A DNA stretch of 37,352 nt from Nitrococcus sp. (lineage in GTDB: Bacteria > Pseudomonadota > Gammaproteobacteria > Nitrococcales > Nitrococcaceae): assembly GCA_030452265.1 (NCBI GenBank), contig JAKDMQ010000007.1:1-37352 (forward strand), in the 5' to 3' direction. Numbering within the stretch: the stretch's first letter is position 1; every line of letters begins with the position of its first letter. Below the pieces are notes generated by a model. It saw only the letters and a list, made by a program, of their open reading frames with translations. It was not told where the DNA came from and made no database searches. Positions 8,072 through 35,207 of the stretch are shown here, one piece after another. The position numbers were made by a program, and so were the translations under genes.

Positions 8072-8081
8072 AACCAGGGTT

Positions 8082-8546: not shown

Positions 8547-8547
8547 A

Positions 8548-10576: not shown

Positions 10577-10598
10577 TAATACGCACCTGCCATGGTAC

Positions 10599-13034: not shown

Positions 13035-14267
13035 ATGGCGCACCGCGTCGTCGTCACCGGTATGGGCGGGCTGACGGCTCTCGGACACGACTGGGCCAGC
13101 ATCGCCGAGCGCTTGCGCGCACGCCGTTCCGGGGTGCGTCGCATGCCTCATTGGGCTGACGTCACGGCAATGAACACGCGCCTGGCCGCGCCGGTGGCGG
13201 ACTACGAGCTTCCCGCGCACTATAACCGCAAACGCACCCGCAGCATGGGCCCGGTGGCACTGATGTCAACGCGCGCCACCGAGTTGGCGCTCAACGACGC
13301 GGGCCTCCTGGATGATCCCGTCCTCACGAACGGCCGCACCGGCATCGCCTACGGCGCCTGTGCCGGCAGCGCCAGGGACGTGGTGGCCTTCGGCTTACTG
13401 GGTGCGCGGCGCAGCCTGCTCAGCATCAACTCCAGCAGCTATGTGCGCATGATGAGCCATACCGGCGCCGTCAACATCAGCGTGTTCTTCGGTATCACCG
13501 GGCGCACCATCCCTTCGACCAGCGCCTGCACCTCGGGCAGCCAGGCCATCGGCTTCGCCTACGAGGCCATCCAGGCCGGCAAACAGACCGTGATGGTGGC
13601 CGGTGGCGGCGAAGAGCTTTCGATCGGCACCACCGGCGCCTTCGATCGTTTGTTCGCCACCAGCACCCGCAACGGCGCACCGGAAACTACCCCGCGTCCG
13701 TTCGACCGTGACCGCGACGGACTGGTGGTGGGCGAAGGCGCGGCCACCCTGATCCTGGAGGACTTGGAACACGCCCGGGCGCGCGGGGCAACCATTCACG
13801 CGGAAGTTGTCGGCTTCGGCACCAACACCGACGGCGCCCACATCACCCAACCGCAGATGCAAAGCATGGCCGCCGTTATGCGCCTAGCCCTGGAGGACGC
13901 CGCGCTCCATCCGGATGCCATCGGCTATGTCAGCGCCCACGGCACAGCCACCGAGCGAGGCGACGAGGCCGAAGCCACCGCCACGAACGACGTCTTTGGC
14001 AGCCATATGCCGATTAGCTCGTTGAAAAGCTACTTCGGCCATTCCCTGGGCGCCTGTGGATCGCTCGAAGCCTGGCTGGCCATCGAGATGATGCGTGAGC
14101 AGTGGTTCGCACCGACGCTCAACCTGGAGCACCTCGATCCCGCCTGCGCGCAACTGGACTACATCACCGGCGACGGGCGCGAGCTGGACATCGAGTACTT
14201 CATGAGCAACAACTTCGCTTTCGGCGGCATCAACACCAGCCTAATCTTCCGCCGCTGGAGCGACTGA
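13035..14267 (+). CDS. Beta-ketoacyl-ACP synthase (KS2), FabB/FabF-like
   Basis: A 410-residue condensing enzyme with a complete catalytic set: Cys165 in STSACTSGS, His302 in SAHGTATERGD, Lys331 and His336 in SSLKSYFGHSLGACG, and NNFAFGGIN near the end. It differs from KS1 in length and in its SACTSGS elbow, closer to the FabB style. A GGAAACG sequence lies about 7 bases before the ATG. It is grouped with fabV and ACP1, so it could elongate the alkyl chain for the resorcinol half; it could equally be an ApeR-like second ketosynthase. The plus-strand block ends here, 145 bp from a convergent gene. Confidence 0.92.
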   Translation: MAHRVVVTGMGGLTALGHDWASIAERLRARRSGVRRMPHWADVTAMNTRLAAPVADYELPAHYNRKRTRSMGPVALMSTRATELALNDAGLLDDPVLTNGRTGIAYGACAGSARDVVAFGLLGARRSLLSINSSSYVRMMSHTGAVNISVFFGITGRTIPSTSACTSGSQAIGFAYEAIQAGKQTVMVAGGGEELSIGTTGAFDRLFATSTRNGAPETTPRPFDRDRDGLVVGEGAATLILEDLEHARARGATIHAEVVGFGTNTDGAHITQPQMQSMAAVMRLALEDAALHPDAIGYVSAHGTATERGDEAEATATNDVFGSHMPISSLKSYFGHSLGACGSLEAWLAIEMMREQWFAPTLNLEHLDPACAQLDYITGDGRELDIEYFMSNNFAFGGINTSLIFRRWSD

Positions 14268-14412: not shown

Positions 14413-15279
14413 TTACCAAACACCCATGAGCTGATACCCGCGGAACGGATCTCCCGCCACCACATGCAGGCGTGGAACCGGGTCGGCTCCCAACGCAGCA
14501 ATCAAAGCATGCACGACTGCGTCCGGATGGCCGCGGTGACAGAAAGGGGCGCGCCACTCCCGGCATCGCTCCAGATCCGCGCCCAGCACCTGCTGTTGAT
14601 CACCCGACAGGTGCGGGTCGATTGCCCATCGCTCGCCGGCGGCAAGCCAGGCCTGCGCCTCGATCTCATCCCGGGTTCGCGCGTAGGCAAGCCGCGCAAC
14701 ACTGTCGTCGAGCTTGTCGTCCACCGCCAGCCAGTAGCTCGCCTCCACCAGCGGCGTAGCGTCCGGCAATTCGCAGCGCTTGCGGTGCTCGGCGAGCGGC
14801 CACACACATTCGGCCACCGCGCCCAATAGCATCAGGGGTTCGGGCAGCGAATCCGGTTCCGCCTCCAGAGAAGCCAATTCCAGCATGGCCCCAAAAGCAC
14901 CCTGGCTGCGAGCGACGTTCATATTGCGACCGCTCAGACCCAGACTGGCAGCAAGGTAGTAGCCCACCATGTTGCTGGACACATTAATGAACGACATCGG
15001 CATGGGTGAGCGGCCGCGCAGCACGATTTCATCCATCAGGCGGACCGCTTCCGCGGCACTGCCCTGTTCGCTCGCCAGGTACAACGGTGTGGTGGCGGGC
15101 AACGGCCGGTCGAGCCGCGCCACGCAACGCTGCGCCCCGATCAGTGCCAGCCGGATGTAGCGATTGATGCGCCGTGGCGGTCTTTCCAGACAGGCTCGCA
15201 ACGGCTCCGCGAGTGAATCGGGCGCTTCCTGCGCGGCAGCCTCGAAGGCCCCATGTGCGCAAATTCGCCACGTCTTCAC
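14413..15279 (-). CDS. Ketosynthase-like protein lacking the catalytic cysteine (CLF2)
   Basis: A 288-residue protein resembling a ketosynthase N-terminal region. SPMPMSFINVSSNMVGYY at 91-108 aligns with the region before the nucleophile elbow, and the elbow-equivalent reads MNVARSQGAFGA (120-131), with no cysteine. No HGT or GHxLG histidine motif is recognisable. The gene overlaps KS3 by 4 bp, so a KS3/CLF2 heterodimer, as in type II polyketide and flexirubin-type systems, is the best reading. It has little resemblance to CLF1 (2599-3426), so the cluster seems to hold two unlike KS/CLF pairs. Its assignment rests on position plus the SFxNxxSNMVGYY pattern. Confidence 0.68.
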   Translation of the reverse strand: MKTWRICAHGAFEAAAQEAPDSLAEPLRACLERPPRRINRYIRLALIGAQRCVARLDRPLPATTPLYLASEQGSAAEAVRLMDEIVLRGRSPMPMSFINVSSNMVGYYLAASLGLSGRNMNVARSQGAFGAMLELASLEAEPDSLPEPLMLLGAVAECVWPLAEHRKRCELPDATPLVEASYWLAVDDKLDDSVARLAYARTRDEIEAQAWLAAGERWAIDPHLSGDQQQVLGADLERCREWRAPFCHRGHPDAVVHALIAALGADPVPRLHVVAGDPFRGYQLMGVW

Positions 15280-16406
15280 GGCGCATACTCCATAACCAGA
15301 ACGCCATTATTGCCACCGAATCCAAAGTAGTTAAGCAACATGTAACCCGGTGGCAAAGCTTGCGCCTGGGTTACGGGGATCAGGCCCAAAGCCGTATCGG
15401 GCTCCCGGAAGCCGGCGGTGGACGGCAGCCAGCCTTCGCGCCAGCAGGTTGCCATGGCGAGCGTTTCCAATATGCCGCAGGCGCCAAGCGTGTGCCCCAG
15501 CACCGATTTCAACGAGGTGACCGGTACCCGGCCTACATCCACACACGCCGCGATAGCGACGGCCTCGGCCCGGTCATTGTCGGGCGTGCCGGTACCATGG
15601 GCCTTGACCGCATCAACCCGATCGATCCCGGCGTTGCGCAAAGCGCCGCGCATGAGCGTACGCGCCGCGTCGGGATGAATCTGGGTAATCCTGCTCGTAT
15701 CACAGGCGGTAGCCGCGCTCAGCAACCGCATGCCCGTGAAGTCGGGGCCTTCCGGCGCCGCATCCAAGACGATGGCGGCAGCAGCCTCACCGAGAATGAG
15801 GCCATCGCGATTGCGGTCGAACGGACGGCAATGGCTTTGGGTAAACAGCAACAACGAGTGGAAGCCGGCAAACGTAACCCGGCCCGGGCATTCCAAGCCG
15901 ATGACGAGAGCCCGTGCGCAATCACCGCGCCGGATGGCGGCGGCCGCGTACATCAGGGCATGCACACCGGAGGAGCACGCCGTGTTGATCGTGTACTGGC
16001 CGCCCATGATCTCGAATTGTCTTGCGATCGACGCCGCCAACAGGCCCGTACTGGGTTTGGCCCAGGCCAACGCCGGCTCGCCGCGCGCGACTGCCGCGGC
16101 ATAGCTTTGTTCGCGGCCAATCAAATCGGCCGTGGAACTGGCAATGAATAGCGCCATATCCTGACGCCGGGCCGGAGGGAATGCCGTCAATGCATCCATG
16201 ACGGCGGCTTCGGCCAGGGCCACCACGCGATTGGCGCAACCGGGAAATACCGCCGGCAGATACGGTACCGCAATCGCCGGAGTTAATTCTTCGATCGAGC
16301 GATGACAGGGGCGGATGGCGGGCTTAAGCAACCCCTGGCTCAATGCCGTCAGCCCGCGGCCCGTGTGGCAGACAACGCCACCACTGGCCAGGTAGACGGG
16401 GCTCAT
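15276..16406 (-). CDS. Beta-ketoacyl-ACP synthase (KS3)
   Basis: A 376-residue ketosynthase, slightly short for the family because of a reduced N-terminus. Catalytic residues are present: Cys144 in NTACSSG, His270 in KAHGTGTPDNDRAE, Lys300 and His305 in TSLKSVLGHTLGACG, and the closing NYFGFGGNNG loop. The DNDRAE variant after the HGTGT motif resembles ketosynthases of aryl-polyene and flexirubin systems. It overlaps ACP2 at its start and the cysteine-less CLF2 at its end, forming an ACP-KS-CLF cassette. It should extend an ACP-bound chain; whether this is polyene or alkyl cannot be decided from sequence. Confidence 0.9.
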   Translation of the reverse strand: MSPVYLASGGVVCHTGRGLTALSQGLLKPAIRPCHRSIEELTPAIAVPYLPAVFPGCANRVVALAEAAVMDALTAFPPARRQDMALFIASSTADLIGREQSYAAAVARGEPALAWAKPSTGLLAASIARQFEIMGGQYTINTACSSGVHALMYAAAAIRRGDCARALVIGLECPGRVTFAGFHSLLLFTQSHCRPFDRNRDGLILGEAAAAIVLDAAPEGPDFTGMRLLSAATACDTSRITQIHPDAARTLMRGALRNAGIDRVDAVKAHGTGTPDNDRAEAVAIAACVDVGRVPVTSLKSVLGHTLGACGILETLAMATCWREGWLPSTAGFREPDTALGLIPVTQAQALPPGYMLLNYFGFGGNNGVLVMEYAP

Positions 16407-16687
16407 GGGCTCTGCCGTGCTTCTTGCAGATATTCCGCCAGGGTATTAACCGAGGCAAGCAAGCGCCGTAGCTGCTTAGGGTCGGTAATCACAACACCGT
16501 ATCTGGACTGAATTGCCATCGATATCTGCAGGCCATCCAGTGAATCCAGTCCAAGCGTGGATCGCCGCCCGAACAACGGCTCTTCGTCCCCGATCTGCTC
16601 CGGCTTGATGTCCTTGTCAGTTACCTCGACTATCAGTTGTTTCAGCTCGAGATTGAGCTCCCTGTTATGTGCTGTGTTCATTGGCAT
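16403..16687 (-). CDS. Acyl carrier protein (ACP2)
   Basis: A 94-residue carrier protein with the phosphopantetheine Ser49 in TLGLDSLDGLQISMAI. A 'IkPEqIgdeePLFG' segment precedes it, as in ApeE-type and other non-AcpP carriers where 'PLFG....LGLDSLD' is the signature. The first ATG (16687) is taken as start; a second ATG two codons later (16681) is possible. It overlaps KS3 by 4 bp, and 49 bp separate it from the ABC permease gene. Two different carriers in one locus suggest separate chains for two product halves. Confidence 0.92.
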   Translation of the reverse strand: MPMNTAHNRELNLELKQLIVEVTDKDIKPEQIGDEEPLFGRRSTLGLDSLDGLQISMAIQSRYGVVITDPKQLRRLLASVNTLAEYLQEARQSP

Positions 16688-16736: not shown

Positions 16737-17891
16737 CTAATAGCTCTGTTCCAGGTGGTACAGCACTGCCGCAACAGCCATACACGCCAGTCCGAACGCG
16801 CTCAGCGCAGCGCAATTCGGCAAGGCGTCAACCGGCGACCCGCCCCGCAGGAGAATATCCCAAAAGCCCTCCAGCGCCCAAGACATCGGCGATAGGGCCG
16901 CTGCGTTCTGCATGCCCTCCGGCATTATCATTTTGGGCACCATGATGCCGCCCAGCGCGGCGAACACCAAATTGAGGGTCGCGCCCAAGGCGAACGCCTG
17001 TACACTCGTTTTTGCCACGGTAGCGACCAACAGAGCCAAACCGATCGCCGCCAGGCTGGTAGCGCTCGCCACAACCAGAAGCCCCGCCGGCTGTGCGCCG
17101 AGAGTCAGGGCCTCGCCGCCAGTCAGTGGTACCAGCCATACACCCACGGCCAGCGCCGCCGCCAATTGCAGCATATTGAGCAGGAAATAAGGCGGCAGGC
17201 GCGAGAACAACAACTGCCAGGCCGGAAGTTGCAACGCACGCAGGCGTAAATCCGTACCCTGCTCGCGTTCCGTAACGATGACGCCGGACAACGGCACCAC
17301 GACAAAAAACATCGCAAACACCAACCATCCCGGCACACTTTGCTGTACCGCGCTGGGCAGTGGCGCACCCGTCCCGAGCCGCACGTCGATGTGCCAGAGC
17401 TCCGGATTCGTCACCTCGCGCAGGCGCGCGCCGTTGGCTCCCAGGCGCGGCATGATGGAGCTGATAAGGGCATTGCCTTGGACGCGCATCAGCGCGGCAA
17501 TAACTGCATTGCGGAAGGCAAGGCGAGCCTGCGGCAGAACCGTTGGATCGGCGGACCAACTCAGCAACGGCTGGTCAGGGTCATCGGGAGACCCGAGTAG
17601 TCGCTTGCTGAAACCGTGCGGCAAAAAAAGCTCGAAGTCGTGTGAGGCACTGGCGGAAACAACGCGGATCGCCTCGTTCTGACGCAACTGTTCGATGACA
17701 CGGCCACCCAGCGGGCCGGCCTCGTCGACTGCCACCATCACCGTCAGTAACGGGCGACCACCGCCGAAAGCATTCTGCATCGCCAACGACATAATCAGAA
17801 TGAAAACGGTCGGCATCAGAAACAACACGGCCAATCCGTGTATGTCGCGCGACAGCAGTCTCAGTTCCTTGACGGCAAGAGCGTACAACAC
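16737..17891 (-). CDS. ABC-2 type transporter permease
   Basis: A 384-residue membrane protein of the ABC-2 family. It has one N-terminal helix (about 20-40), a large extracytoplasmic domain to about 185, then five or six helices to the C-terminus. 'VVVPLSGVIVTEREQGTdlRLRAL' is the typical cytoplasmic-loop motif after the second helix. The start is GTG at 17891, three bases after the ATPase stop. With the adjacent ATPase it forms a likely pigment or precursor exporter. Pigment clusters of the flexirubin type also carry such pairs, from memory. The substrate is not readable from sequence. Confidence 0.88.
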   Translation of the reverse strand: MLYALAVKELRLLSRDIHGLAVLFLMPTVFILIMSLAMQNAFGGGRPLLTVMVAVDEAGPLGGRVIEQLRQNEAIRVVSASASHDFELFLPHGFSKRLLGSPDDPDQPLLSWSADPTVLPQARLAFRNAVIAALMRVQGNALISSIMPRLGANGARLREVTNPELWHIDVRLGTGAPLPSAVQQSVPGWLVFAMFFVVVPLSGVIVTEREQGTDLRLRALQLPAWQLLFSRLPPYFLLNMLQLAAALAVGVWLVPLTGGEALTLGAQPAGLLVVASATSLAAIGLALLVATVAKTSVQAFALGATLNLVFAALGGIMVPKMIMPEGMQNAAALSPMSWALEGFWDILLRGGSPVDALPNCAALSAFGLACMAVAAVLYHLEQSY

Positions 17892-17894
17892 GGT

Positions 17895-18623
17895 CTAGTG
17901 GCGCAAAGCCGAGCCGGTTAGCCGCAGAAAAAGCGCTTCCAAATCCCGCGCTTCACGTAACAACGCCGGTAATGCGTCGCAAACCAGGATCCGTCCACCG
18001 TCCATGATCGCGACGCGGTCGCACAGGCGCTGCACCTCGTCCATGTAATGCGTGGTATAGACGATCGTTGCACCATTGTCGTTCAGATCACGCAAAGCCT
18101 CCAATATGAACTGGCGCGACTGCGTATCCACGCCAACCGTAGGCTCGTCCAGCAGCAGTAACGGCGGCTCGCCGAGCAGGGCGATCGCCAGATTCAGACG
18201 TTGTTTCAGCCCGCCGGACAACCGGGCCGCGCGCTTGCTCGACTGCCCGGCAAGGTCGGTGCGCTGCAATGCTGACTCGATCCGCGCGCCGCGGCCGCGG
18301 CGATCGGCCGACCGCATCCGGTCAAAAAACTCCAGGTTCTCCCGCACGGTCAGGCCCGGATAAAAGGCCAGAGTTTGCGGCGCCAGACCTACTCGACCGG
18401 CAAGTCCGCGCCGTTGTCGCGGGATCGCTAGGCCATCGATAACCACGCGGCCGGATTGCGGGGGGAAAAGTCCCAGCAGGATATGCACCAGGGTCGTTTT
18501 GCCCGCGCCGTTGGGGCCAAGCAACCCGAGCAGGCTGCCGCTGGGCACCTGTAGATCCAGCCCATCGAGTACCCAGGGACCGGAACGGCTATAGCGAGCC
18601 CGTACGCCTTCGATTTGAATCAT
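17895..18623 (-). CDS. ABC transporter ATP-binding protein
   Basis: A 242-residue nucleotide-binding domain with all motifs: Walker A GPNGAGKTT (about 37-45), Q-loop 'LAPQ', signature LSGGLKQR, Walker B LLLLDEP and a switch His in TTHYMDE. The shape is that of drug- and polysaccharide-type ABC-2 exporters. It overlaps the methyltransferase-like gene by 4 bp upstream and is followed by the permease with a 3-base spacer, so all three are co-expressed. It energises export by the permease at 16737-17891. Confidence 0.93.
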   Translation of the reverse strand: MIQIEGVRARYSRSGPWVLDGLDLQVPSGSLLGLLGPNGAGKTTLVHILLGLFPPQSGRVVIDGLAIPRQRRGLAGRVGLAPQTLAFYPGLTVRENLEFFDRMRSADRRGRGARIESALQRTDLAGQSSKRAARLSGGLKQRLNLAIALLGEPPLLLLDEPTVGVDTQSRQFILEALRDLNDNGATIVYTTHYMDEVQRLCDRVAIMDGGRILVCDALPALLREARDLEALFLRLTGSALRH

Positions 18624-19426
18624 CCCGCGGCACCACCGGCACCAGCGCTGTCCCGCGGGTAGCCGATCAGAAAGGTTACCGGCGCGCCCCGGTAACGATA
18701 GGTGTCAGCAAACCAAACATACCGGTTGCCGGCTGCCACCTGCCCCATACGCCGTAACTCCGTTGGCGTATAGCAACGCAACACGGATACAAGAGTGTCC
18801 CAGAAGATGATGAGCGGCGCCACCGGCAACACGTAGGTCAACGCGAGCCGCGTCCACGAAAACGGGCGAATCCACGGGGTTAAGCCCCATACCAACACCG
18901 GTGTGAAAAGCACCGCCAACAGATCCGCATAGCTGCGCCGCAACAACTCCATTACGACGATTGGCGCGCCGTCGTCCACGGCGTTGCGCAATATGCCGGT
19001 GGCCACCGTAGGTGTAAAGTGGTGGAACCCGTCAAACAGAGTGCGCATGCCTTGCAGAGATCCGGGAACCGCGGTCGCATCCACGGGCGTCAAACACCAC
19101 ACGACGGCGGACGACGCGCCTCGCAGCGCGCTAGCCGCTTGGCCGGGATATTTATCGGTAAGCAACACGGGCACCACCCGCCCGGCCAGTCGATTGAGTT
19201 GCGGGCTGAGATGTCGCCACGGCCCGCCGCCACCCGAGCACAAGTCGACCACGCCGGCCGCTTCGCCGGCACGCCGCAGCGCTTGCGCAATGAGGGGTAA
19301 TTGCGGGGAAAATGGCTCGATCAAATCGATTAGCGTACGCAGATAATCCGTAACCAGTGCTCTAAGGCTAGATGGCATCCAGACGGCCTCGTTGAATTCA
19401 AACAGATGCCGGCGCTTCATAGGCAT
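18620..19426 (-). CDS. Class I SAM-dependent methyltransferase-like protein with membrane segments
   Basis: A 268-residue protein (266 if the second ATG at 19420 is used). The opening MKRRHLFEFNEAVWMPSSLR precedes a Rossmann motif VVDLCSGGGGPW near residue 60, a probable SAM-binding loop. The C-terminal half has two strongly hydrophobic stretches, around 170-188 and 196-216, which is unusual for a soluble methyltransferase. The next genes are the ABC exporter, joined by a 4-bp overlap. Methylation of a membrane-embedded aromatic or polyene intermediate is an inference. A 119-bp gap, which could hold a promoter, separates it from the chorismatase. Confidence 0.68.
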   Translation of the reverse strand: MPMKRRHLFEFNEAVWMPSSLRALVTDYLRTLIDLIEPFSPQLPLIAQALRRAGEAAGVVDLCSGGGGPWRHLSPQLNRLAGRVVPVLLTDKYPGQAASALRGASSAVVWCLTPVDATAVPGSLQGMRTLFDGFHHFTPTVATGILRNAVDDGAPIVVMELLRRSYADLLAVLFTPVLVWGLTPWIRPFSWTRLALTYVLPVAPLIIFWDTLVSVLRCYTPTELRRMGQVAAGNRYVWFADTYRYRGAPVTFLIGYPRDSAGAGGAAG

Positions 19427-19545
19427 CCCGTGCAGGTTTATGAGGCTGCTGCAGAACGTAGCTCGTAGTGGCGGCGCTGTCGCGACGCTATGCAGTCAGG
19501 CGCATTACTCGCCGCGCCGGCAGTAGCCTATAAGGAAGTACGCAA

Positions 19546-20553
19546 TCAGCCGCTATGGGTAAGCAGGCCTTCTACCTCAACCAACAGTTCCTGACGGCAG
19601 ATATCACCGGCCAAATACAACCTGGGCACGTCACCGAACTCACGCGTTATGGCATCGTGGACACCGGTCGTATTCAGTAGCGGACGCAGGTAAACCCGCA
19701 GCAAATCCAGATCGCGCGCGCTGCAATGACGCAAGCGAGTATCCCGGGTAGCGGCTTCGTCAATCAGCGTCCGAACATTGCGCCCGATCTCAGCCACCTG
19801 CTCGTTTAGGTTATGCCGGTGCAGGCTTTCATGCCCCACCACGCTGGCGGTACCGGAGAGATACAGATGGACGCCTTCACCCCAATCCTTGAGCTTGGCG
19901 CGCGAGAACGACGGACTCTTGGGACCATACTGGCGGGGGTAGCGGAAAGCCGATACTTGGCGCCGGTTCTCGATCTGAGCTCCGGGTGTGCGGGCCGCGA
20001 TAAAGTACACTAGCAGCCCGGGCCGGTAACTGCCAATGGCGCTGGCCGCGGGCAGGGCGCGCTCGAAATCGGCGTGTTGTTCGTAGGTACCGGCCCGGCC
20101 CGCGGAGAACTGCTTATAACGCTCGGTGTCTTCGTCACCCTCGTTAATGCCGGGAAAGAAGTTCCACATACGCAGGGCATGGGGATACCCGCAGCGGCGC
20201 AGAAAGGCGAGAATACGGCGATAGCCGTCGCGGGCGGCGACATCCAGTGCCGGGTAGTCCTGCTCGCGCAGCAAAAGCTGCCCGAAGAGCACTTCGCCGT
20301 TATGGGCATAGGCAATCCCTTTGCGCTCCCCGCGTGTGACCGGCCACGGGCTGGTCCAGATTTCCGCCGCCGGAGCGTCGCCCTCATCACCCGACAACGG
20401 CGCCAGGCCAATGGTAATGTCACCCGCATCACCCGTCGCGGAAGCGGCATCCGCGAAACGCACCACGGCCAGCACGTCATCAGCCAGCGCGCAGGGCGCG
20501 CGGTAGCAGATGCCAAAAGGCAGCGCTGCTCGCGGCCGCGGATTTGCGTTCAT
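19546..20553 (-). CDS. xanB2: Chorismatase / 3-hydroxybenzoate-forming enzyme, XanB2-like
   Basis: A 335-residue member of the FkbO/Hyg5/XanB2 chorismatase family. Recognisable blocks are RMWNFFPGINEGDEDTERYK at 128-147, a QFSAGR continuation, GPKSPSFSRAK at 210-220, and a RidA-like half starting YLSGTASVVGHES at 231-243. XanB2 of Xanthomonas converts chorismate to 3- and 4-hydroxybenzoate, and 3-hydroxybenzoate is the xanthomonadin starter. The same role here would supply the aryl end of the polyene. FkbO-type members instead give dihydroxycyclohexadiene carboxylate, so product specificity needs testing. The halogenase gene ends 13 bp upstream, indicating co-transcription. Flexirubin pathways of Bacteroidetes use an ammonia lyase instead, which is not seen here. 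Confidence 0.85.
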   Translation of the reverse strand: MNANPRPRAALPFGICYRAPCALADDVLAVVRFADAASATGDAGDITIGLAPLSGDEGDAPAAEIWTSPWPVTRGERKGIAYAHNGEVLFGQLLLREQDYPALDVAARDGYRRILAFLRRCGYPHALRMWNFFPGINEGDEDTERYKQFSAGRAGTYEQHADFERALPAASAIGSYRPGLLVYFIAARTPGAQIENRRQVSAFRYPRQYGPKSPSFSRAKLKDWGEGVHLYLSGTASVVGHESLHRHNLNEQVAEIGRNVRTLIDEAATRDTRLRHCSARDLDLLRVYLRPLLNTTGVHDAITREFGDVPRLYLAGDICRQELLVEVEGLLTHSG

Positions 20554-20566
20554 GCACAGTATCTAG

Positions 20567-21901
20567 TCATGCGACGTCTTGTTCGGTGGTGCCACCGGTG
20601 AAGTTGATGCCACGGGTGCGCACGCGCCGGCGGAAAGCGCGCCAAGCATTGCGGAAGTCCATCACGCTGTGGAAGTAGTACAGCAGTTTGAATAGCTGCA
20701 GGCGCCATTCCACCTTCGGGTTGCCGTAGACGTCACCGGCCAGCACCGAGGTGACGGCCTCTTCGATGCGCAGCGGATTGCCGGGTTGCAGGAACAGGCG
20801 CTGCATTCCCGGTGTATTGAAGCGCTCGATAAACCAGGAAAACGTGGTAATGCCCTTATGCACCATTTTCTGGTACTTGCGCAGCATGGCGTCGGTGCCC
20901 GGCTGGTTTTTGAGAATGGCGCTGATGATCTCGCTCGCGTGCATGCCGTTGGTCATGGCCATGAGCACCCCGGAGGAGAAGATGGGGTCGATAAAGGCAT
21001 AGGCATCGCCCACCATGAGCCAGCCGTCGCCGTACATCCGCGTGCACTGGTAGGAGTAGTTGCCGGTGGCGCGCACCTCGTTAATCAGCTTTGCATCCTT
21101 GATGCGCGAACGCATTTCCGGCGGCGCCATCTCCAGAGTCTGAAACAAGAATTCCCGCGGGCTGACGCTGCGTGATTTCAGATACTCCGGGTCGCACACC
21201 GCGCCCATGCTCATGGGGCCGTCCTTCAGCGGAATCATCCACATCCAGCCGTGCTCGAACCAGTAGGCGCTGATGTTGCCGGCGTTATCGCCGGGGCGGC
21301 GCGCCACGTTCTCGAAGTGCGCGTAAATGGCGGCGGTCTGGTGCTTTGGGTTTTTGCGCTTAAACTTGTACTCGTTGGCCAGAAAGGTATCGCGGCCTGT
21401 GGCATCGACAAAGTAGCGACATTCCCAGACCTGCTTGCCACGCTCCTTGCTCCTGGTGTGTACACGGGTCTTGGCGCCGGTCTCACTGGCAAACTCGACC
21501 CGGGTAACTTTGACCCCCTCGAAACCGCGTGTCCCCTTCTTCTTGCTGTTCTCGAACAGCAATTGGTCAAATGCGCTGCGGCGCACCTCGTAAGCGTGCG
21601 GCAACGACTTGTCCATGGCATTCCTGAAGAAGAAATCGTGGCGTTTGGGCGTGCCGGTTGCGGAGTTGAAATCCGCGCCGGGTTTGGGAATACCAAGCTT
21701 GTCGACCTCCTCCAGCAGACCCAGCTTCTCCACGATGGGAAGGAACTTGGGCAACATGGACTCGCCGATGTGAAAGCGCGGATGATGCGCCTTGTCCACC
21801 ATGACCACGTCCCAGCCTTGCATGGCGAGAAACGCGGATACGGTTGACCCCCCAGGGCCGCCGCCCACTACGAGCACATCGCAAGATTCCATTGCCTGCA
21901 T
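20567..21901 (-). CDS. FAD-dependent halogenase
   Basis: A 444-residue flavoprotein. The FAD-binding GGGPGGS is at residues 13-19 and GESMLP at 46-51. Lys73, in the IPKPGADF context, matches the conserved catalytic lysine of carrier- and phenol-type halogenases. The halogenase signature Trp-x-Trp-x-Ile-Pro is present as W219-M-W-M-I-P224. GDAYAFIDPIFSSGV near residue 300 is the second FAD contact. The expected reaction is chlorination or bromination of an electron-rich aryl or polyene position. Xanthomonadins are brominated aryl polyenes, and some flexirubins are chlorinated. ATG 21901 is preferred; ATG 21892 is possible. It is the first gene of the minus-strand block and needs a separate flavin reductase, not seen here. 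Confidence 0.87.
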   Translation of the reverse strand: MQAMESCDVLVVGGGPGGSTVSAFLAMQGWDVVMVDKAHHPRFHIGESMLPKFLPIVEKLGLLEEVDKLGIPKPGADFNSATGTPKRHDFFFRNAMDKSLPHAYEVRRSAFDQLLFENSKKKGTRGFEGVKVTRVEFASETGAKTRVHTRSKERGKQVWECRYFVDATGRDTFLANEYKFKRKNPKHQTAAIYAHFENVARRPGDNAGNISAYWFEHGWMWMIPLKDGPMSMGAVCDPEYLKSRSVSPREFLFQTLEMAPPEMRSRIKDAKLINEVRATGNYSYQCTRMYGDGWLMVGDAYAFIDPIFSSGVLMAMTNGMHASEIISAILKNQPGTDAMLRKYQKMVHKGITTFSWFIERFNTPGMQRLFLQPGNPLRIEEAVTSVLAGDVYGNPKVEWRLQLFKLLYYFHSVMDFRNAWRAFRRRVRTRGINFTGGTTEQDVA

Positions 21902-22324
21902 GACAGCCTTTACTCCCTTCCTCTTTCTTGTGCCACGGTTTCATTGGTGAAACAGGGATGAAAAATATATCATTCTAGCCTCTGGCTCCTATCACCGTCG
22001 GCCATAACGATTTGGATACGTAACGATAGGCCCAGGTATTGGGCCACCCCCATGGCAGCCCGCAGCCAATACCGCGCAGTCTCCCACGCCTTCCGATCAA
22101 GCGGATCGACATCCGCCCGATCCGCCGCGCCTAGCCCTGCGCTATATCGCCGACAGCGATGGGCACTGATTGCCCGGCATCACGTCCGCGCAAACGATAT
22201 CCGGCGGGCAAAAATGGCACATTCATCAGCGTCACCTGCATAAACGCGGTTCGTCCGATAGCTTGCTGCCGGAAATGTTACCATAGCGCATCGAGACAAC
22301 GTCACGGGAACCGGAAAAGGGCGC
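21902..22324. promoter_or_regulatory. Long divergent intergenic region between halogenase and darA
   Basis: These 423 bases separate the two divergent blocks and contain no convincing gene. An AT-rich patch at 21960-21976 lies close to the halogenase start and is a plausible promoter for it. A short perfect hairpin lies at 21938-21953. A second inverted repeat, GCGGATC at 22101-22107 with GATCCGC at 22119-22125 (11-base loop), lies in the middle. No promoter boxes close to consensus were found for darA. The length and the repeats make this the best place for cluster-level regulation. Confidence 0.55.
21938..21953. promoter_or_regulatory. Perfect palindrome, candidate operator or 5'-UTR hairpin of the halogenase operon
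   Basis: GTTTCA-TTGG-TGAAAC is a perfect 6-bp inverted repeat with a 4-base centre, 37 bp upstream of the halogenase start and next to an AT-rich patch. It could bind a dimeric regulator or form a small mRNA hairpin. No regulator is assigned. Confidence 0.4.
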
Positions 22325-23260
22325 ATGGGGATGGACAAACGCAAGGTGCTGGTGGTGCACTACGCCTCGCCGAGCGGACAGCTCAGTGAGGTAGTGCAGC
22401 ATCTGACCGGGCCGCTTACCCAAGCTGACGGGATCGACTGCCGCCACGTCGTGCTGCGCTCCCGCGAGCCCCAGCCCTTTCCGTGGCCGATCCTGCGGTT
22501 TTTCGACACTTTCCCCGAGTGCATCTATATGGATGCAACAGACTTGGAGCCGCTGGAGCTTGACCCCGAAGAGCGCTTCGACCTGCTGGTACTGGCTTAT
22601 CAAGTATGGTTCCTGGCGCCATCCCTGCCCACCACGGCCTTCCTGAAAAACCCAACCGGCAAGGCCGTGCTCAAAGACACTCCGGTAGTGACCGTGGTGG
22701 CCTGCCGCGACATGTGGCTGATGGCCCAGGAGCGCACCAAGACAATGCTAGCGGCCGCAGGCGCACGCCTGATTGGCCATATCGCGCTCGTGGACGAGGC
22801 CGGCAGCGTCGGCAGCTTCCTGGCCACGCCGCTGTGGATGCTGACCGGCAAACGCGGGCCGCTCCTAGGCGGCTTGACCCCACGCGCCGGCGTGGCCCAG
22901 GAGGAGATCCGTGCCAGCCGCCGTTTCGGCCAGCGCATGGTGGAGGCACTGCGCGACGACCGGGCGCTCGACGGCAATTTGCTGCGGGGCCTTGCCGCAG
23001 TGCACGTCAACACCCGCCTGATCGCCACGGAAAAGACCGCGCAGCGCGGTTTCCTGGTCTGGGGGGCGCTGCTGCGCAAACTCGGCCCGCACGGGGCGCG
23101 GGCGCGCCAACCCGTGATACTGGTCTACATCGTGTTTCTAGTCCTGTTGCTTGTCACGGTGCTGCCGGTCAGTGCATTGCTGAAGACGCTGGCGACGCCC
23201 TTGATGCGCAAGCGCATCGCGGCCCAGGTTGCCTACTACAGCGGGCCATCCGGAGAATAA
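22325..23260 (+). CDS. darA: DarA-like dialkylresorcinol-forming enzyme, flavodoxin-like
   Basis: A 311-residue protein. The N-terminus KVLVVHYASPSGQLSEVV is a flavodoxin-type phosphate-binding loop after a first beta strand. Segments matching proteins annotated as dialkylresorcinol condensing enzyme DarA follow: FPWPILRFFDTFPE, LAYQVWFLAPSLPT, RDMWLMAQE and WMLTGKRG. The C-terminus has a hydrophobic helix of about 22 residues (around 262-284) that should anchor it in the membrane. DarA is thought to aromatise the DarB condensation product to a dialkylresorcinol. The start is ATG 22325; a second ATG at 22331 is possible, and an AAGGG site lies just upstream. darB starts 12 bp after its stop. 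Confidence 0.85.
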   Translation: MGMDKRKVLVVHYASPSGQLSEVVQHLTGPLTQADGIDCRHVVLRSREPQPFPWPILRFFDTFPECIYMDATDLEPLELDPEERFDLLVLAYQVWFLAPSLPTTAFLKNPTGKAVLKDTPVVTVVACRDMWLMAQERTKTMLAAAGARLIGHIALVDEAGSVGSFLATPLWMLTGKRGPLLGGLTPRAGVAQEEIRASRRFGQRMVEALRDDRALDGNLLRGLAAVHVNTRLIATEKTAQRGFLVWGALLRKLGPHGARARQPVILVYIVFLVLLLVTVLPVSALLKTLATPLMRKRIAAQVAYYSGPSGE

Positions 23261-23272
23261 GCTCGCCCCGAC

Positions 23273-24439
23273 ATGACGAACAAAGCCTACATCACCATGC
23301 TTGCGGCGGTCTTGCCCAACGCACCCGTCGCCAACCACGAGATGGAGGCGGTGCTTGGCACCGTCAACGGCCAGCCGTCGCGCGCCAGGCACACCATCTT
23401 GCGTTCCAACGGCATCCAAACGCGCTACTACGTCATTGACCCTGCGACTGGGCAACCTACCCACACGAACGCGCAACTGACGGCTGAAGCCGTTCGCAAG
23501 TTGCAGGATGGCCGCTTCCGGTTGGAAGACACCGACCTACTGGCCTGCGGTACCACCTTAGGGGACCAGCTAGTGCCCGGCCACGCCAGCATGGTGCACG
23601 GTGAGTTGGGCATCCCGCCGTGCGAGACCGTCACCACCGGGGGCGTGTGTATCGCCAGCATCTCGGCTATGAAGTACGCCGTGCTTGGGGTGGCCGGCGG
23701 CGAGTTCCGGCATGCCGTGAGCACCGGCTCGGAAGCTGTTTCCATGCTGATGCACGCGCGCCATTTCGAGCCGGCGAACGATGTCCAGGTCGGCGCACTT
23801 GCGAAAAATGGCGCGCTGGCCTTCCAGAAGGATTTCATCCGCTGGATGCTGTCCGACGGAGCCGGCGCCGCATTGATCGAAGCGAAACCCGCCGACGAGG
23901 GGCTATCGCTGCGCGTGGACTGGATTGCCGAGCGCTCCTATGCCAATGAGCAGCCCGCCTGCATGTACGTCGGTGCGGAAAAGCGCGACGACGGCAGGCT
24001 CAGGGGCTGGCTCACCTACGATCCCGGGGAGTGGGCCCGGCATACGCTATTCACGGTGCAGCAGGACGTGGCGCAACTGAACGAGCACGTTATGCACTAC
24101 ACGGTGGAACGGCCCCTGCGGGAGCTTGCGCGGCTAAAAGAAATGGACCCCGACGATATCGACTTCTTCCTGCCGCACTACTCCTCGCACTACTTCCGCG
24201 AGCCGGTACGTCAGCACATGCTGAAGGCCGGATTCGACATCCCCTTCGAGCGCTGGTTCACCAACCTCTACACTTGCGGCAACACCGGCGCCGCATCGAT
24301 CTACATCATGCTGGAAGAACTGTTTCACTCCGGGAGATTGCAGCCGGGCCAGCGCCTGCTCTGCTACGTGCCGGAAAGCGCCCGCTTCAGCACCGCCTGG
24401 ATCCACCTGACCGTGTGCGGCCCGGACCACGCCCCGTGA
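23273..24439 (+). CDS. darB: KAS III-like ketosynthase DarB
   Basis: A 388-residue FabH-like condensing enzyme. The KAS III triad is present: Cys126 in TTGGVCIASISAM, His302 in FFLPHYSSHY and Asn337 in YTCGNTGAAS. DarB-type enzymes join a beta-ketoacyl thioester to a second activated acyl chain and cyclise the product towards a cyclohexanedione, which DarA aromatises. The adjacency to darA and the GVCIAS elbow favour DarB over housekeeping FabH. The two acyl substrates would set the resorcinol side chains. The next gene starts 10 bp after the stop. Confidence 0.88.
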   Translation: MTNKAYITMLAAVLPNAPVANHEMEAVLGTVNGQPSRARHTILRSNGIQTRYYVIDPATGQPTHTNAQLTAEAVRKLQDGRFRLEDTDLLACGTTLGDQLVPGHASMVHGELGIPPCETVTTGGVCIASISAMKYAVLGVAGGEFRHAVSTGSEAVSMLMHARHFEPANDVQVGALAKNGALAFQKDFIRWMLSDGAGAALIEAKPADEGLSLRVDWIAERSYANEQPACMYVGAEKRDDGRLRGWLTYDPGEWARHTLFTVQQDVAQLNEHVMHYTVERPLRELARLKEMDPDDIDFFLPHYSSHYFREPVRQHMLKAGFDIPFERWFTNLYTCGNTGAASIYIMLEELFHSGRLQPGQRLLCYVPESARFSTAWIHLTVCGPDHAP

Positions 24440-24449
24440 CACCAGGGCC

Positions 24450-24854
24450 ATGAAGCACAAGTCGGTTCCCCAAGATCACGCCAGGGCCTTTATGGGCCAC
24501 AGCAAGGTGCTCTACGCCGAGGATGATGATGGCCGCTTCAGCCCCGCTCTCAGCAACGGTTGGGAAGCCGAGGAGATCGCGCTGGACCAGGCCATCGAGG
24601 AATTCCGGCGCCAGGCGGCCGAAGCGTTCGCGCGCGCTTGCGCGGGAACTGGCTCGCCGCTCGAGTACCACATGTACCGCGCGCGCATGGACTTGCAGCT
24701 CCTAGCCCACGGCACGGGCTACCCACGCTGGCGCGTGCGCCGCCACCTGCGCCGCGGCGCCTTTCTCAAACTGCCCGATCGCATCCGCCGGCGCTACGCC
24801 GAGGCGTTAGGCAAAACGCCGGCGCAACTGGACAGCCTGCCGGACGAATCTTGA
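24450..24854 (+). CDS. Small protein between darB and the btrH-like gene, HTH-like C-terminus
   Basis: A 134-residue protein with no firm family assignment. The first third is polar and acidic (VLYAEDDDGRFSPALSNGWE). The middle has 'SPLEYHMYRARMDLQLLAHGTG', and the C-terminal 55 residues (RARMDLQLLAHGTGYPRWRV onward, then 'RYAEALGKTPAQLDSLP') have the pattern of a Cro/CI-like helix-turn-helix. I recall similar short proteins beside darB in flexirubin-type loci, which suggests a conserved partner. It may be a regulator or a non-DNA-binding scaffold. It is tightly spaced (10 bp after darB, 4 bp before the next start), so it is certainly part of the operon. Confidence 0.6.
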   Translation: MKHKSVPQDHARAFMGHSKVLYAEDDDGRFSPALSNGWEAEEIALDQAIEEFRRQAAEAFARACAGTGSPLEYHMYRARMDLQLLAHGTGYPRWRVRRHLRRGAFLKLPDRIRRRYAEALGKTPAQLDSLPDES

Positions 24855-24858
24855 CCCC

Positions 24859-25860
24859 GTGGCCGACATCGAGATTCCCTACGATCACCGCCAGGGCGCA
24901 CACTGCGAGAGCGGCGCCATCGCCGCGCTGCTGCGCCACGCCGGACTGGACATCTCCGAGCCCATGGCCTTCGGCATCGCCGGTGCCCTGACTTTCGCCT
25001 ACCTGCCGTTCGTGAAGTTCGGCGGGTTGCCGCTGTTCGCGTATCGCATGCCGCCGGGGAGGTTGATCCGGGGCGTTTCCCGACGCTTGCGGATTCCGAT
25101 GCACGTGGCTACCTTCAAGCAGCCGGATGCGGGCATGCGCGCCCTGGACGACCATCTCGCCGCTGGACGCCTGGTGGGCATCCAGACCTCAGTCTACTGG
25201 CTGACCTACTTCCCGCCGGATATGCGCTTTCACTTCAACGCCCACAACCTGGTAGTTTACGGCAAGCGCGGAAGCAACTACCTGATCAGCGACCCCGTGA
25301 TCGACATCCGCGTGGAATGCGATGAGAAGGATCTACGCAAGGCGCGTTTTACCCGCGGCGTATTGGCGCCGCAAGGGCGGCTCTACTACCCGGTTGCAGT
25401 ACCCACACAACCAGACTGGCCAGGCGCCATCCGCAAGGCCATCCGCCTCACTGCCCGCATGATGCTGCACACCCCGCTGCCGCTCGTCGGCATACGTGGC
25501 ATCCGCAGCGTGGCCCGCAAGGTCCGCCGCCTCGACCCTGCCAATGAATGCCACAACAAGCTGCTGCTGGGCCACATCGTGCGTATGCAGGAGGAAATCG
25601 GTACCGGAGGCGCCGGCTTTCGTTTCCTGTATGCGGCGTTCCTTCAGGAAACCGCGGACATCCTAGGCAAACCAGCGCTGCTGGACATCGCCCACGAGCT
25701 GACCGAAGTGGGCGACGGATGGCGCCTGTTCGCCTTGCACGCCGCAAAGATGTGCAAGGGCCGCATGCCACTCGACTACGCTGCCCTCGCCGATGAGCTG
25801 GAGACTTGCGCCGCCGGCGAAAAACAGGTGTTCCGGCGACTGCGCGGCGCAGTAAAGTAG
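24859..25860 (+). CDS. BtrH N-terminal domain protein, candidate acyltransferase joining polyene and resorcinol
   Basis: A 333-residue protein with a BtrH_N domain: HCESGAIAALLRHAG at 15-29 supplies a candidate nucleophile Cys16, and 'EPMAFGIAGALTFAYLPF' follows as in family members. A DUF4872-like C-terminal region (about 180-330) completes the architecture. BtrH transfers an acyl group from a carrier protein to an amino sugar in butirosin synthesis. In a cluster with both aryl polyene and DarAB genes, the analogous reaction would move the polyenoyl group from ACP to a resorcinol hydroxyl, giving a flexirubin-type ester. The start is GTG at 24859, four bases after the preceding stop. It is the last gene of the pigment cluster. 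Confidence 0.8.
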   Translation: MADIEIPYDHRQGAHCESGAIAALLRHAGLDISEPMAFGIAGALTFAYLPFVKFGGLPLFAYRMPPGRLIRGVSRRLRIPMHVATFKQPDAGMRALDDHLAAGRLVGIQTSVYWLTYFPPDMRFHFNAHNLVVYGKRGSNYLISDPVIDIRVECDEKDLRKARFTRGVLAPQGRLYYPVAVPTQPDWPGAIRKAIRLTARMMLHTPLPLVGIRGIRSVARKVRRLDPANECHNKLLLGHIVRMQEEIGTGGAGFRFLYAAFLQETADILGKPALLDIAHELTEVGDGWRLFALHAAKMCKGRMPLDYAALADELETCAAGEKQVFRRLRGAVK

Positions 25861-26007: not shown

Positions 26008-26796
26008 ATGGGGATCGTGTCACCGCCAACGCCGAGCATCGCCTATGAGCAGCCGCTCAACGAGCGTGTGCGCACCTTGTTGCGCCTCGAATTCCTATAC
26101 CGTCAGGGCCGCTTTGGCATCGCCGGTGAGTCGCAATGGCATTCGCGCTTGGCGCTGAGCACGTTCATCGAGGTCATGGATCTGCTCAGCCGGGGTGACC
26201 TGCGCTCCGAGCTGCAAAAGGAGTTGACGCGCTTGTCGAATACGTTGCGAGCACTTCAGGAAACCCCTGCCGTCGATCCGAGTCGGTTGCGTGCAATATT
26301 GTCCGAGTGCGAGCACCTGAGCGAGCGTCTGCGCGCCGGTCCCTACGCCATCGGCAGCAAGATGAAAGACAACGACTTCCTCAAGGCCGTGGCCCAACGC
26401 AGCAGCATCTCCGGTGGGACGTGCAGCTTCGATCTCCCCGTTTATCATCGATGGCTGCACCTACCTCCCGAGGATCGATGCGCGGATCTAGAGCGTTGGT
26501 TCGCGAGCTTTGACGCGGCGGCCGAGGCAACGGCACTGATTCTTCGGCTGCTGCGCGAGAGCGCCGATGCCACGCCGGAGGTTGCATCCAGCGGCACATT
26601 CCAGACGACCCTCGATCCCGCGACGCCCTACCAGATGCTGCGGGTCATACTAACTCAGGGTATCCAGTGCTACCCAGAGATCAGCGGCAATCGGCATTTC
26701 TGCAACATCCGCTTTCTGGAGCAGACGTCCTTGGAGGATCACCCGCGGCAAGTATCGGCGGACGTGGAGTTCCGACTCGAGCGATGCGTCGTGTAA
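26008..26796 (+). CDS. zapD: Cell division protein ZapD
   Basis: A 262-residue ZapD (YacF). The N-terminal [19 protein letters not shown] at about 13-31 is the family hallmark, followed by a helical region to about 110 and a beta-rich C-terminal domain that includes '[19 protein letters not shown]'. ZapD cross-links FtsZ protofilaments and helps organise the Z ring at mid-cell. yacG follows after 19 bp, as in many Gammaproteobacteria. Usually coaE and pilD precede zapD; here the pigment cluster takes that place. Length and motifs are normal. Confidence 0.94.
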
Positions 26797-26815
26797 GGCC
26801 GGCAGGAGCGCTCGC

Positions 26816-27031
26816 GTGGCCGAGAAATCCGTGACCGTTCGCTGCCCCACCTGCGAGAGCACGCTTGAATGGTCGCAGCACTATCCTTATCGACCGTTTT
26901 GCTCCCGGCGCTGCAAGTTAATCGACCTCGGCGCCTGGCTCGACGGCAGCCACCATATCCCCGGCGCGCCATGGGATGACGAATCCCTTGATACCCCGGG
27001 TGATTCGAACGACGAGCCCGATCGCGTCTAA
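26816..27031 (+). CDS. yacG: DNA gyrase inhibitor YacG, zinc-binding
   Basis: A 71-residue protein with four zinc-ligand cysteines in the pattern CPTC...FCSRRC, followed by the '[16 protein letters not shown]' segment that defines YacG. The C-terminus is acidic and disordered, as usual. In E. coli YacG binds the GyrB C-terminal region and inhibits gyrase. The start is GTG at 26816, with a GGCAGGAG sequence about 7 bases upstream. It ends the zapD-yacG pair and faces the Nudix-ThiE gene. Confidence 0.93.
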
Positions 27032-27114
27032 TCCTAGACTGCTGTTGTCAGTCTGCCCTGTCGAGGCCAGCGAATCGTACCGAGGCGCGGGTCGGCGCGC
27101 TCTGGCGGGACCGT

Positions 27115-27134
27115 CGGCGGCAAGGATGCCGCCG
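27115..27134. terminator. GC-rich hairpin between convergent yacG and the Nudix-ThiE gene
   Basis: CGGCGGCA-AGGA-TGCCGCCG is a perfect 8-bp stem in the 211-bp gap between two convergent genes. No T-run follows on either strand, so a bidirectional pause or end-protection role is more likely than a classical intrinsic terminator. The rest of this gap shows no gene. Confidence 0.4.
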
Positions 27135-27242
27135 TCGAGCCTACAGGGAAGTATTTACGGCGTGTCCCGTCAGCGTGCGCCGGCCCGGGCTGGCAGCGCT
27201 TCTACAAACATCAGCAACTGCATTGCATAGCTCATGCGTTGC

Positions 27243-28202
27243 TCAGTCACGCCAAAAACCTCTGATTGCGGCCACGCCCTGGGCGCGAGCCCGCCACGCT
27301 CGCTCCAGATCCCCCGGTCCGAGTCCACCCAAGGCATACACCGGGATCGGCACATCGTTGATCCAATTTGTAAATTTCAGCCACCCCAGCGGCCTGCGCC
27401 CGACATGGCTCGAAGTGGCGCACACGGGCGAGAGCACCGCGAAGTCCACCCCCAGCGTCTCCGCGCGAGCCAGCTCGGCAGGGCTGTGGCAGGAGGCTGC
27501 GACCAGCCGGTCCCGGGGTAACGGCCGGCTGTCTAGCTCCGCGAGCTGCGTGGCGGCCAGATGCACGCCGTCGGCATCGACTGCTTGGGCGAGATCCCAA
27601 TCTCCGTTGATCAGCAGCTTGCCTCCAGCGGCGCGGACACGATCCATGGCGGCTTCGGCAAGTCGCCGCAAGGGCACCGCGGGAAGACATCGCACCCTTA
27701 GCTGAATCAGCCGCGCACCAGCCACCAGCGTCCGCTCCAGTGCGCTGAGGAAGGCATCGGGATCATCGATGTCCGGTGAAATCGCGTAGCAGTCCGGGAG
27801 CATGGCCGCGACCATGATCGGGCGGTTGGCGGGCGGGAAGCGATAGCTGGGAAGCTCCGCGGGCACGACCCAACGCAGCGGCTGCCCTTCCCGGCCGTGA
27901 GGCTCGCCGTCGAAGGCCGTAATCCGCCAGACGTCGAGCAGCACGGATTTCTCGGGATAGCGGAACGGGATGCGGATCAGCGGATGCGCCGCTGTCGGCC
28001 GGATGGCCAGCTCCTCCACCAGCTCGCGCGCGAGTGCGGCGCGGATATCCTCACCTGGCTCGACCTTGCCGCCCGGAAACTCCCAGCGGCTGCCCTGATG
28101 GACGTAATCGGGACGCCGCGTGATAAGAACACGGCCCGCCGGGTCGGTGATGACGCCGACCGCGACGTGGACGATGGCGGGATATGCGCTGCCTCGTGCC
28201 AT
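27243..28202 (-). CDS. Nudix hydrolase (MutT-like) fused to a ThiE/TenI-like domain
   Basis: A 319-residue two-domain protein. The N-terminal half is Nudix: the box reads GGKVEPGEDIRAALARELVEEL (Gx5Ex7REUxEEx type), preceded by 'RRPDYVHQGSRWEFP'. The C-terminal half (about 145-319) is a thiamine-phosphate-synthase-like barrel with 'DGVHLAATQL' and 'PVYALGGLGPGDLERA'. Such fusions next to argJ and secA are common in Gammaproteobacteria. The Nudix part probably cleans oxidised nucleotides (8-oxo-dGTP); the ThiE-like part has no proven role. ATG at 28202 is preferred; a GTG at 28205 directly before it is also possible. It is the last gene of the secA-argJ run. Confidence 0.9.
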   Translation of the reverse strand: MARGSAYPAIVHVAVGVITDPAGRVLITRRPDYVHQGSRWEFPGGKVEPGEDIRAALARELVEELAIRPTAAHPLIRIPFRYPEKSVLLDVWRITAFDGEPHGREGQPLRWVVPAELPSYRFPPANRPIMVAAMLPDCYAISPDIDDPDAFLSALERTLVAGARLIQLRVRCLPAVPLRRLAEAAMDRVRAAGGKLLINGDWDLAQAVDADGVHLAATQLAELDSRPLPRDRLVAASCHSPAELARAETLGVDFAVLSPVCATSSHVGRRPLGWLKFTNWINDVPIPVYALGGLGPGDLERAWRARAQGVAAIRGFWRD

Positions 28203-28223
28203 CACCCGTCACCCGCCACCCGT
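28203..28223. repeat. Three 7-bp units upstream of the Nudix-ThiE start
   Basis: CACCCGT, CACCCGC and CACCCGT follow each other directly before the start codon. On the coding strand this gives repeated GGGTG, so the ribosome-binding region is itself repetitive. Confidence 0.6.
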
Positions 28224-28226
28224 CAC

Positions 28227-29444
28227 TCAACTCCGATAATCCGCGTTGATTTTGATGTAGTCGTAAGACAGGTCGCAGGTCCAAACGCGGGTCGCGGCGT
28301 CACCCCGGCCTAAGGCTACCCGAATCCTAACCTCCTCTGCGCTCATGCGCGCCACGGCTTCACTCTCCTTATAGTGTTCGCCGCGGGCACCGTTTTCGGC
28401 GACACAAAGGTCATCCAGATAGATTCGGACACGATCGACGTTCATATCCGCGACGCCGGCACGCCCTACGGCCGCGAGGATGCGGCCCCAGTTGGGATCA
28501 CCGGCAAAGACAGCCGTCTTGACCAAGGGGGATTCGGCGATGGCAAATGCCACTCTATCCGCTTCCGCCGCGTCAGCCGCCTCGATCACGTCCACGCTCA
28601 CGAGCCGCGTAGCACCCTCCCCGTCACAAACGATGGCACGCGCCAACGATTGACAAACCTCCGTCAAGGCCGCGACGAAATCCCGGCCGCCGTCCCCAGC
28701 GGCATCGATCCGGACCCCGGAGCGACCCGTCGCCGCGAGCACACAGGCATCGTTCGTGGAGGTATCGCCGTCCACCGTGATGCGATGGAAGGAGGCATCG
28801 ACGGCGGCGCGCAGGGCTTGCGCCGCCCACTCCGGCTCCAGCACGGCATCGGTCGCAAGGAAAGCCAGCATGGTCGCCATATCAGGGCGTATCATGCCCG
28901 CTCCCTTAGCGATACCGGTCAGGGTCACCGGCCGGCCCGCTATGTTCAACACTCTCGAGGCCCCTTTGGGGCGGGTATCGGTGGTCATGATACCGCGCGC
29001 CGCGGCCTCCCAGGCATCATCCGCAAGCTCCGCGAAGGCGTGCGGCACCGCCTCGACGATCCGATTGACCGGCAAGGGCTCGCCGATCACTCCGGTAGAA
29101 AACACCAAGACCTCGCAGACGGCGCAATGGCCCTGCTCGGCGACCCGGCGGGCGCAGCTCAAAGCGGCGCGCAGGCCCTGTGAGCCGGTGCCGGCATTGG
29201 CACAACCCGTATTCACGAGCCAATAGCGAGCCTGCCGGCTTGCCGATAGGTGTTGCTCGGTAACGAGAACAGGCGCCGCGCGGAAGCGGTTGCGAGTCAG
29301 TACGGCAGTGCAGTGAGTGCCCTCGGCCAGCTCGAAGAGCACCAAATCGGGCCGATCCGGCTTGCGAATACCCGCTGCCACCGTGCCAAGGCGCACGCCT
29401 GGCACGGGCCTTAGCCGCTCCCGTGAACGCTCACCAACCGCCAT
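28227..29444 (-). CDS. argJ: Bifunctional glutamate N-acetyltransferase / amino-acid acetyltransferase ArgJ
   Basis: A 405-residue ArgJ. The autoprocessing site is present as KGAGMIRPDMATMLAF, with cleavage expected before the Thr of MAT to expose the nucleophile. 'FSTGVIGEPLP' and 'VDGDTSTNDACVL' are further family blocks, and the C-terminal 'DLSYDYIKINADYRS' is near-invariant. It catalyses transacetylation between N-acetylornithine and glutamate in arginine synthesis. secA lies 12 bp upstream and the Nudix-ThiE gene follows after 24 bp, so all three are probably co-transcribed. Confidence 0.96.
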   Translation of the reverse strand: MAVGERSRERLRPVPGVRLGTVAAGIRKPDRPDLVLFELAEGTHCTAVLTRNRFRAAPVLVTEQHLSASRQARYWLVNTGCANAGTGSQGLRAALSCARRVAEQGHCAVCEVLVFSTGVIGEPLPVNRIVEAVPHAFAELADDAWEAAARGIMTTDTRPKGASRVLNIAGRPVTLTGIAKGAGMIRPDMATMLAFLATDAVLEPEWAAQALRAAVDASFHRITVDGDTSTNDACVLAATGRSGVRIDAAGDGGRDFVAALTEVCQSLARAIVCDGEGATRLVSVDVIEAADAAEADRVAFAIAESPLVKTAVFAGDPNWGRILAAVGRAGVADMNVDRVRIYLDDLCVAENGARGEHYKESEAVARMSAEEVRIRVALGRGDAATRVWTCDLSYDYIKINADYRS

Positions 29445-29456
29445 CGCCCATCCGTC

Positions 29457-32165
<2,709 letters not shown>

Positions 32166-32340
32166 AGGGTACCCACCCGATTTAGGGCCTGTTGACGTTC
32201 ACCACGACGCCGCGACGGCGGCCATTTTCTCGCAAGCCAAGGCAGGCCCGCCCACGTCCTGGACAGGAAAACGATATACTATTGCGTATCCGCTGATTGG
32301 CACATTGTAACACTGGCTCAACTTGCGCTGCTGGTCCTGA
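32166..32340. promoter_or_regulatory. Divergent promoter region between secA and dciA
   Basis: A 175-bp region between divergent starts. TATACT at 32275-32280 on the plus strand is close to a -10 consensus for dciA, but no good -35 is found 16-18 bp upstream. For secA no convincing boxes are seen. Confidence 0.4.
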
Positions 32341-32805: not shown

Positions 32806-32817
32806 GGCCTAATGACC

Positions 32818-33729: not shown

Positions 33730-33755
33730 CTTGCTTCCTTAGTAGTCCATGCTCC

Positions 33756-35149: not shown

Positions 35150-35207
35150 GATCGCGCCTCCAATTACTATCCATTTTTCTAACTGCCTACCACCAACTGC
35201 TCCGCAA

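Follow-up and report, generated by a model that had tools for sequence, protein, structure and literature searches.

A probable arcuflavin-type pigment cluster in Nitrococcus sp., with a halogenase-chorismatase pair beside the resorcinol genes

The stretch of Nitrococcus sp. DNA analysed here (37,352 nucleotides, hereafter the window) most probably carries an arcuflavin-type gene cluster, for a yellow membrane pigment in which a xanthomonadin polyene is joined to a dialkylresorcinol; we put the probability of this reading at about 0.85. Sequence comparison predicts all the parts that define such a hybrid: a chorismatase and an AMP ligase; a type II polyketide synthase for the polyene (ketosynthase, chain-length-factor-like partner, reductase and dehydratases); and DarA, DarB and a candidate ester-forming acyltransferase. 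An earlier note on this DNA implied that such a mix of two pigment logics was novel. That was wrong: a xanthomonadin-dialkylresorcinol hybrid was published in 2014 (PMC3949708), and the finding is therefore real but ordinary. The published compound, arcuflavin, is an aryl heptaene made from 3-hydroxybenzoate plus a dialkylresorcinol, for which an ester link was proposed. What the window adds is one more genome for a published pigment type. Here a single locus holds the starter pair together with the resorcinol genes, which will help genome surveys to spot the hybrid. The features specific to the window are small: a divergent halogenase, a typical copy found with the AMP ligase, and the sharing of a locus by the pair and the dialkylresorcinol (DAR) genes.

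The pair consists of two intact open reading frames on the minus strand, in reading order a XanB1/ArcA-type flavin-dependent halogenase (20567-21901, 444 aa) and a XanB2/ArcB-type chorismatase (19546-20553, 335 aa); they are consecutive and 13 bp apart, as the earlier note had described them, and searches of Pfam and the PDB bear out the names it gave. A scan of 18400-22500 for promoters and terminators found nothing above chance. The halogenase matches Trp_halogenase (PF04820) at E 1.9e-26 and the solved halogenases 5buk, 8zop, 3e1t and PltA (5dbj), each at E 1e-47 or better; its matches to NCBIfam halogenase models lie under the curated cut-offs. The active-site lysine and W-x-W-x-I-P motif that had been read from the sequence are present as K73 and WMWMIP (219-224), and with FIDPIFSSG (303-311; FxxPxxSxG) they are invariant among 113 aligned family members. 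By these motifs the protein is predicted to be a flavin-dependent halogenase of the XanB1/ArcA branch.

The chorismatase matches PF21168 (FkbO/Hyg5 chorismatases) at E 8.5e-36 and TIGR04444 at E 3.3e-62, with 210.6 bits, under the curated cut-off of 325; its best solved relative is Hyg5 (5ag3, E 5.7e-43). For both proteins of the pair, the matches to enzymes of solved structure suffice to establish the fold. Alignment to Hyg5 (5ag3) and FkbO (4bps) places E326 on the catalytic E334 of Hyg5, and G234 and C319 on Hyg5 G240 and C327, where FkbO has Ala at both positions (the Hyg5-type signature residues and catalytic Glu are those defined in PMC7170507). A172 stands where Hyg5 and FkbO both have Gly, the position being matched by alignment and offset; Ala occupies it in all 44 of the 44 pair-linked chorismatases compared, four from Xanthomonas and two from Azonexaceae included, and the window and Xanthomonas enzymes are identical at the four key residues. 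A172 may thus serve as a marker of the XanB2 type. Because of these residues, including the Ala common to pair-linked chorismatases, the window enzyme is grouped with XanB2 rather than with FkbO or Hyg5; an FkbO/Hyg5-like fold with the catalytic Glu, combined with XanB2-like residues, points to the XanB2 type (CH-III). Its product would then be 3-hydroxybenzoate and perhaps 4-hydroxybenzoate. A role as a requirement for ubiquinone can be ruled out, since UbiC is encoded elsewhere in the genome and the chorismatase is not needed for that purpose.

Genes for the resorcinol half flank the pair on both sides, and three genomes from a sample of 369 of the same class give a guide to their arrangement. 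G241 (locus L164) holds chorismatase, halogenase, ABC transporter, acyl carrier protein, ketosynthase, DarH, DarB and DarA in one locus; in G071 (L165) and G358 (L166) about 20 kb is enough to hold the pair, polyene genes and DAR genes. The linkage of pair and DAR genes therefore recurs, with layouts similar to that of the window in at least three other genomes. In the window, the plus strand encodes DarA, the dialkylresorcinol condensing/aromatising protein (22325-23260), recognised by its place beside DarB, where homologues also lie in L164, L165, L166 and L169; DarB itself, a ketosynthase/cyclase of the StlD/DarB family (23273-24439; NF005293, 555 bits against a cut-off of 450); a small conserved protein (24450-24854), which has a homologue at the corresponding position of both L165 and L166; and DarH (24859-25860), a BtrH-related acyltransferase and the candidate polyene-resorcinol ester synthase (NF053550, 465 bits, cut-off 300; PF14399 and PF16169). 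On the other side of the pair, all on the minus strand, are an ABC transporter ATPase (17895-18623) and an ABC-2 permease (16737-17891), both identified by Pfam and similar to darF/darI; an acyl carrier protein like darC (16403-16687; PF00550); and a ketosynthase (15276-16406, by profile matches) and its partner (14413-15279), similar to darJ/darK. The transporter and ketosynthase genes stand in the same order in L164 and L166. Between the transporter and the chorismatase lies a gene for a conserved protein (18620-19426, minus strand) in which a methyltransferase-like motif, VVDLCSGGGGP, was read by eye; it could be an O-methyltransferase for the aryl ring. Pfam at E 10 gave no match for this protein, DarA, the ketosynthase partner or the small protein between DarB and DarH.

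Most of the polyene enzymes are supplied by the window as well. A polyene ketosynthase (1415-2602) and a truncated-ketosynthase, chain-length-factor-like partner (2599-3426), both on the plus strand, were recognised as a block through NF006618 (518 bits, cut-off 407) and PF13723. Profile searches identified, on the minus strand from 3437 to 11312, a FabG2-type reductase, an ApeP dehydratase, a DUF3261 protein, an MMPL exporter, a LolA-like protein, a thioesterase, a glycosyltransferase, an ApeI dehydratase, an acyltransferase and a PAP2 protein. An intact FabV enoyl-ACP reductase (11397-12599; NF043048, 555 bits, cut-off 400) and a FabF-like ketosynthase (13035-14267; NF006587, 678 bits, cut-off 470) follow on the plus strand; a FabV homologue also lies near a halogenase in L109. 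The AMP ligase is outside the window, on another contig of this genome, C161, together with a lipid-A-type acyltransferase, a polysaccharide deacetylase-like gene, a second halogenase and a gene that we take to be MipA-like, by its family and by the position that such a gene has in the arc cluster. The draft assembly comprises 419 contigs, its contamination being estimated at 5.86%, and as the cluster is split over contigs, the pathway can be called complete only provisionally.

These parts suggest the following route. The chorismatase would convert chorismate to 3-hydroxybenzoate (perhaps also 4-hydroxybenzoate) and pyruvate; the AMP ligase would activate 3-hydroxybenzoate and transfer it to an acyl carrier protein, where the type II ketosynthase/chain-length factor, reductase and dehydratases of the window would elongate it into an aryl polyene. 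The 2,5-dialkylresorcinol would come from DarA and DarB, and DarH would link the two halves as an ester. At some point along this route the phenol ring is probably halogenated by the XanB1/ArcA-type flavin protein. The hydroxybenzoyl starter and flexirubin-like ester end that the earlier note foresaw both gain support, the former from the XanB2-type residues, the AMP ligase and a search of the genome that found no tyrosine ammonia-lyase, the latter from DarA, DarB and DarH beside the pair.

The pair itself is an already known combination: xanB1-xanB2 of Xanthomonas and arcA-arcB of Azoarcus sp. BH72. In BH72, arcA (halogenase) and arcB (chorismatase/XanB2) are neighbours; darA, darB, a BtrH-like protein, an ABC transporter, an acyl carrier protein and a ketosynthase are present as in the window, and the AMP ligase is likewise in a separate cluster (PMC3949708). 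The two differ in that the pair of BH72 belongs to its polyene cluster, with the dar cluster located elsewhere, whereas here the pair adjoins the dar genes, and a second halogenase lies near the AMP ligase on C161. In Xanthomonas, as in the window, the gene immediately upstream of the XanB2 chorismatase, on the same strand, belongs to the halogenase family (L117, L118, L135 and L140); xanthomonadins, however, lack the dialkylresorcinol (PMC3949708). With the flexirubin clusters of Bacteroidota the window has in common DarA/DarB-type resorcinol genes, an ester-linked aryl polyene as the product (predicted in the case of the window), and exporter, LolA, glycosyltransferase and acyltransferase genes (PMC3949708).

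Adjacency of the two genes is far beyond chance. A scan of one genome per species (84,980 species) found at least 80 halogenase-family loci; a chorismatase lies directly downstream on the same strand for 42 of the 80 halogenase relatives among the matches listed, Xanthomonas included, and coordinates in the class sample point to about twenty more pairs. Many of the named loci have polyene genes beside the pair; none of the 80 among the matches listed, those of Xanthomonas included, has a darA or darB match within 10 kb, as far as the sequence reaches.

Halogenation is the weak step of the proposed pathway. The halogenated pigment that had been predicted is not borne out by the nearest published case: arcuflavin has the formula C41H52O4, without bromine, though BH72 carries the same pair with arcA adjoining arcB (PMC3949708), so the step may not occur. 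One way to understand this, which deserves some weight although it is the less probable account, is that the enzyme leaves the pigment unhalogenated and is needed for the polyene in another capacity, as a flavin monooxygenase or some other flavin enzyme, or that a halogenated product is formed in minor amount. In the Xanthomonas xanthomonadin cluster XanB1, adjoining XanB2, is called a "putative reductase/halogenase", with a separate halogenase gene listed (PMC3838355), and the window protein also matches the model for the flavin monooxygenase QhpG, under its cut-off. Against this stand the invariance of K73 and WxWxIP in the 113 members, and the annotation of the best solved relatives as halogenases; moreover, according to the Lysobacter paper, Xanthomonas pigments carry 0-2 Br, while the pigment of Lysobacter enzymogenes is non-brominated and its cluster has no halogenase gene. 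A small question is thereby raised: why a pigment reported without halogen should be accompanied by a conserved halogenase whose motifs are all present.

Two other accounts are less probable still. The pair might make a separate small aromatic, such as a free halogenated hydroxybenzoate, and lie in a pigment locus by coincidence. There are chorismatases away from pigment clusters, such as those on Streptomyces plasmids, which serve other products; but the pair adjoins DAR genes both here and in L164, has genes of both kinds, DAR and polyene, nearby in L165 and L166, accompanies polyene genes in many named loci, and no other polyene starter enzyme was found in the genome, which makes coincidence improbable. 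Still less credible is the flexirubin pathway proper, starting from tyrosine-derived 4-hydroxycinnamate. DarA, DarB, DarH and a short-chain dehydrogenase/reductase with a sub-threshold FlxB match would fit it, but the locus has a XanB2-type chorismatase, which would take its starter from chorismate and not from tyrosine, and the only PF00221 protein found in the draft genome is HutH (593 bits, cut-off 539). That protein scores 300 on the FlxA tyrosine ammonia-lyase model (cut-off 700), and no FlxA was found in the draft genome; the tyrosine route is thus without a candidate enzyme, and a tyrosine ammonia-lyase was rejected as the source of the starter.

Within the arcuflavin-type reading, the two halogenases of this genome differ in character. 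The second, more typical copy (L061:8111-9448) lies on C161 beside the MipA-like gene and the AMP ligase. In a tree of 69 halogenases, built by a quick method with SH-aLRT as the only support, the C161 copy forms a tight group with the halogenases of two further genomes from this class, and the window copy is on a long branch (0.8), paired with a Rokuibacteriota MAG protein. One of the two genomes is G085 (L167), where a MipA-like gene is followed by the chorismatase and the halogenase, with the AMP ligase next on the opposite strand; C161 has this order without the chorismatase. Gene order and tree placement together suggest that the pair in the window is an additional copy or one that has moved. 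A speculative and rather unlikely extension is that the window halogenase is a diverged XanB1 copy, moved to the resorcinol locus and now halogenating a second position, on either the resorcinol or the polyene chain, with the typical C161 copy handling the aryl ring; if true, the product would be the first halogenated xanthomonadin-resorcinol hybrid.

The closest relative of the window halogenase among the named-genome matches listed is L064:548-1897, from a Candidatus Rokuibacteriota MAG. None of the pigment markers used occurs in the 10 kb downstream of it (upstream sequence extends only about 0.5 kb), and this relative was dropped as a functional clue. The remainder of the window (26008-37352), directly after the cluster, begins with ZapD (PF07072), beyond which a MutT/ThiE-like protein, ArgJ, SecA, LpxC, FtsZ, FtsA and FtsQ were recognised by eye; with such cell-division and core genes adjoining the cluster, the contig belongs to the chromosomal core.
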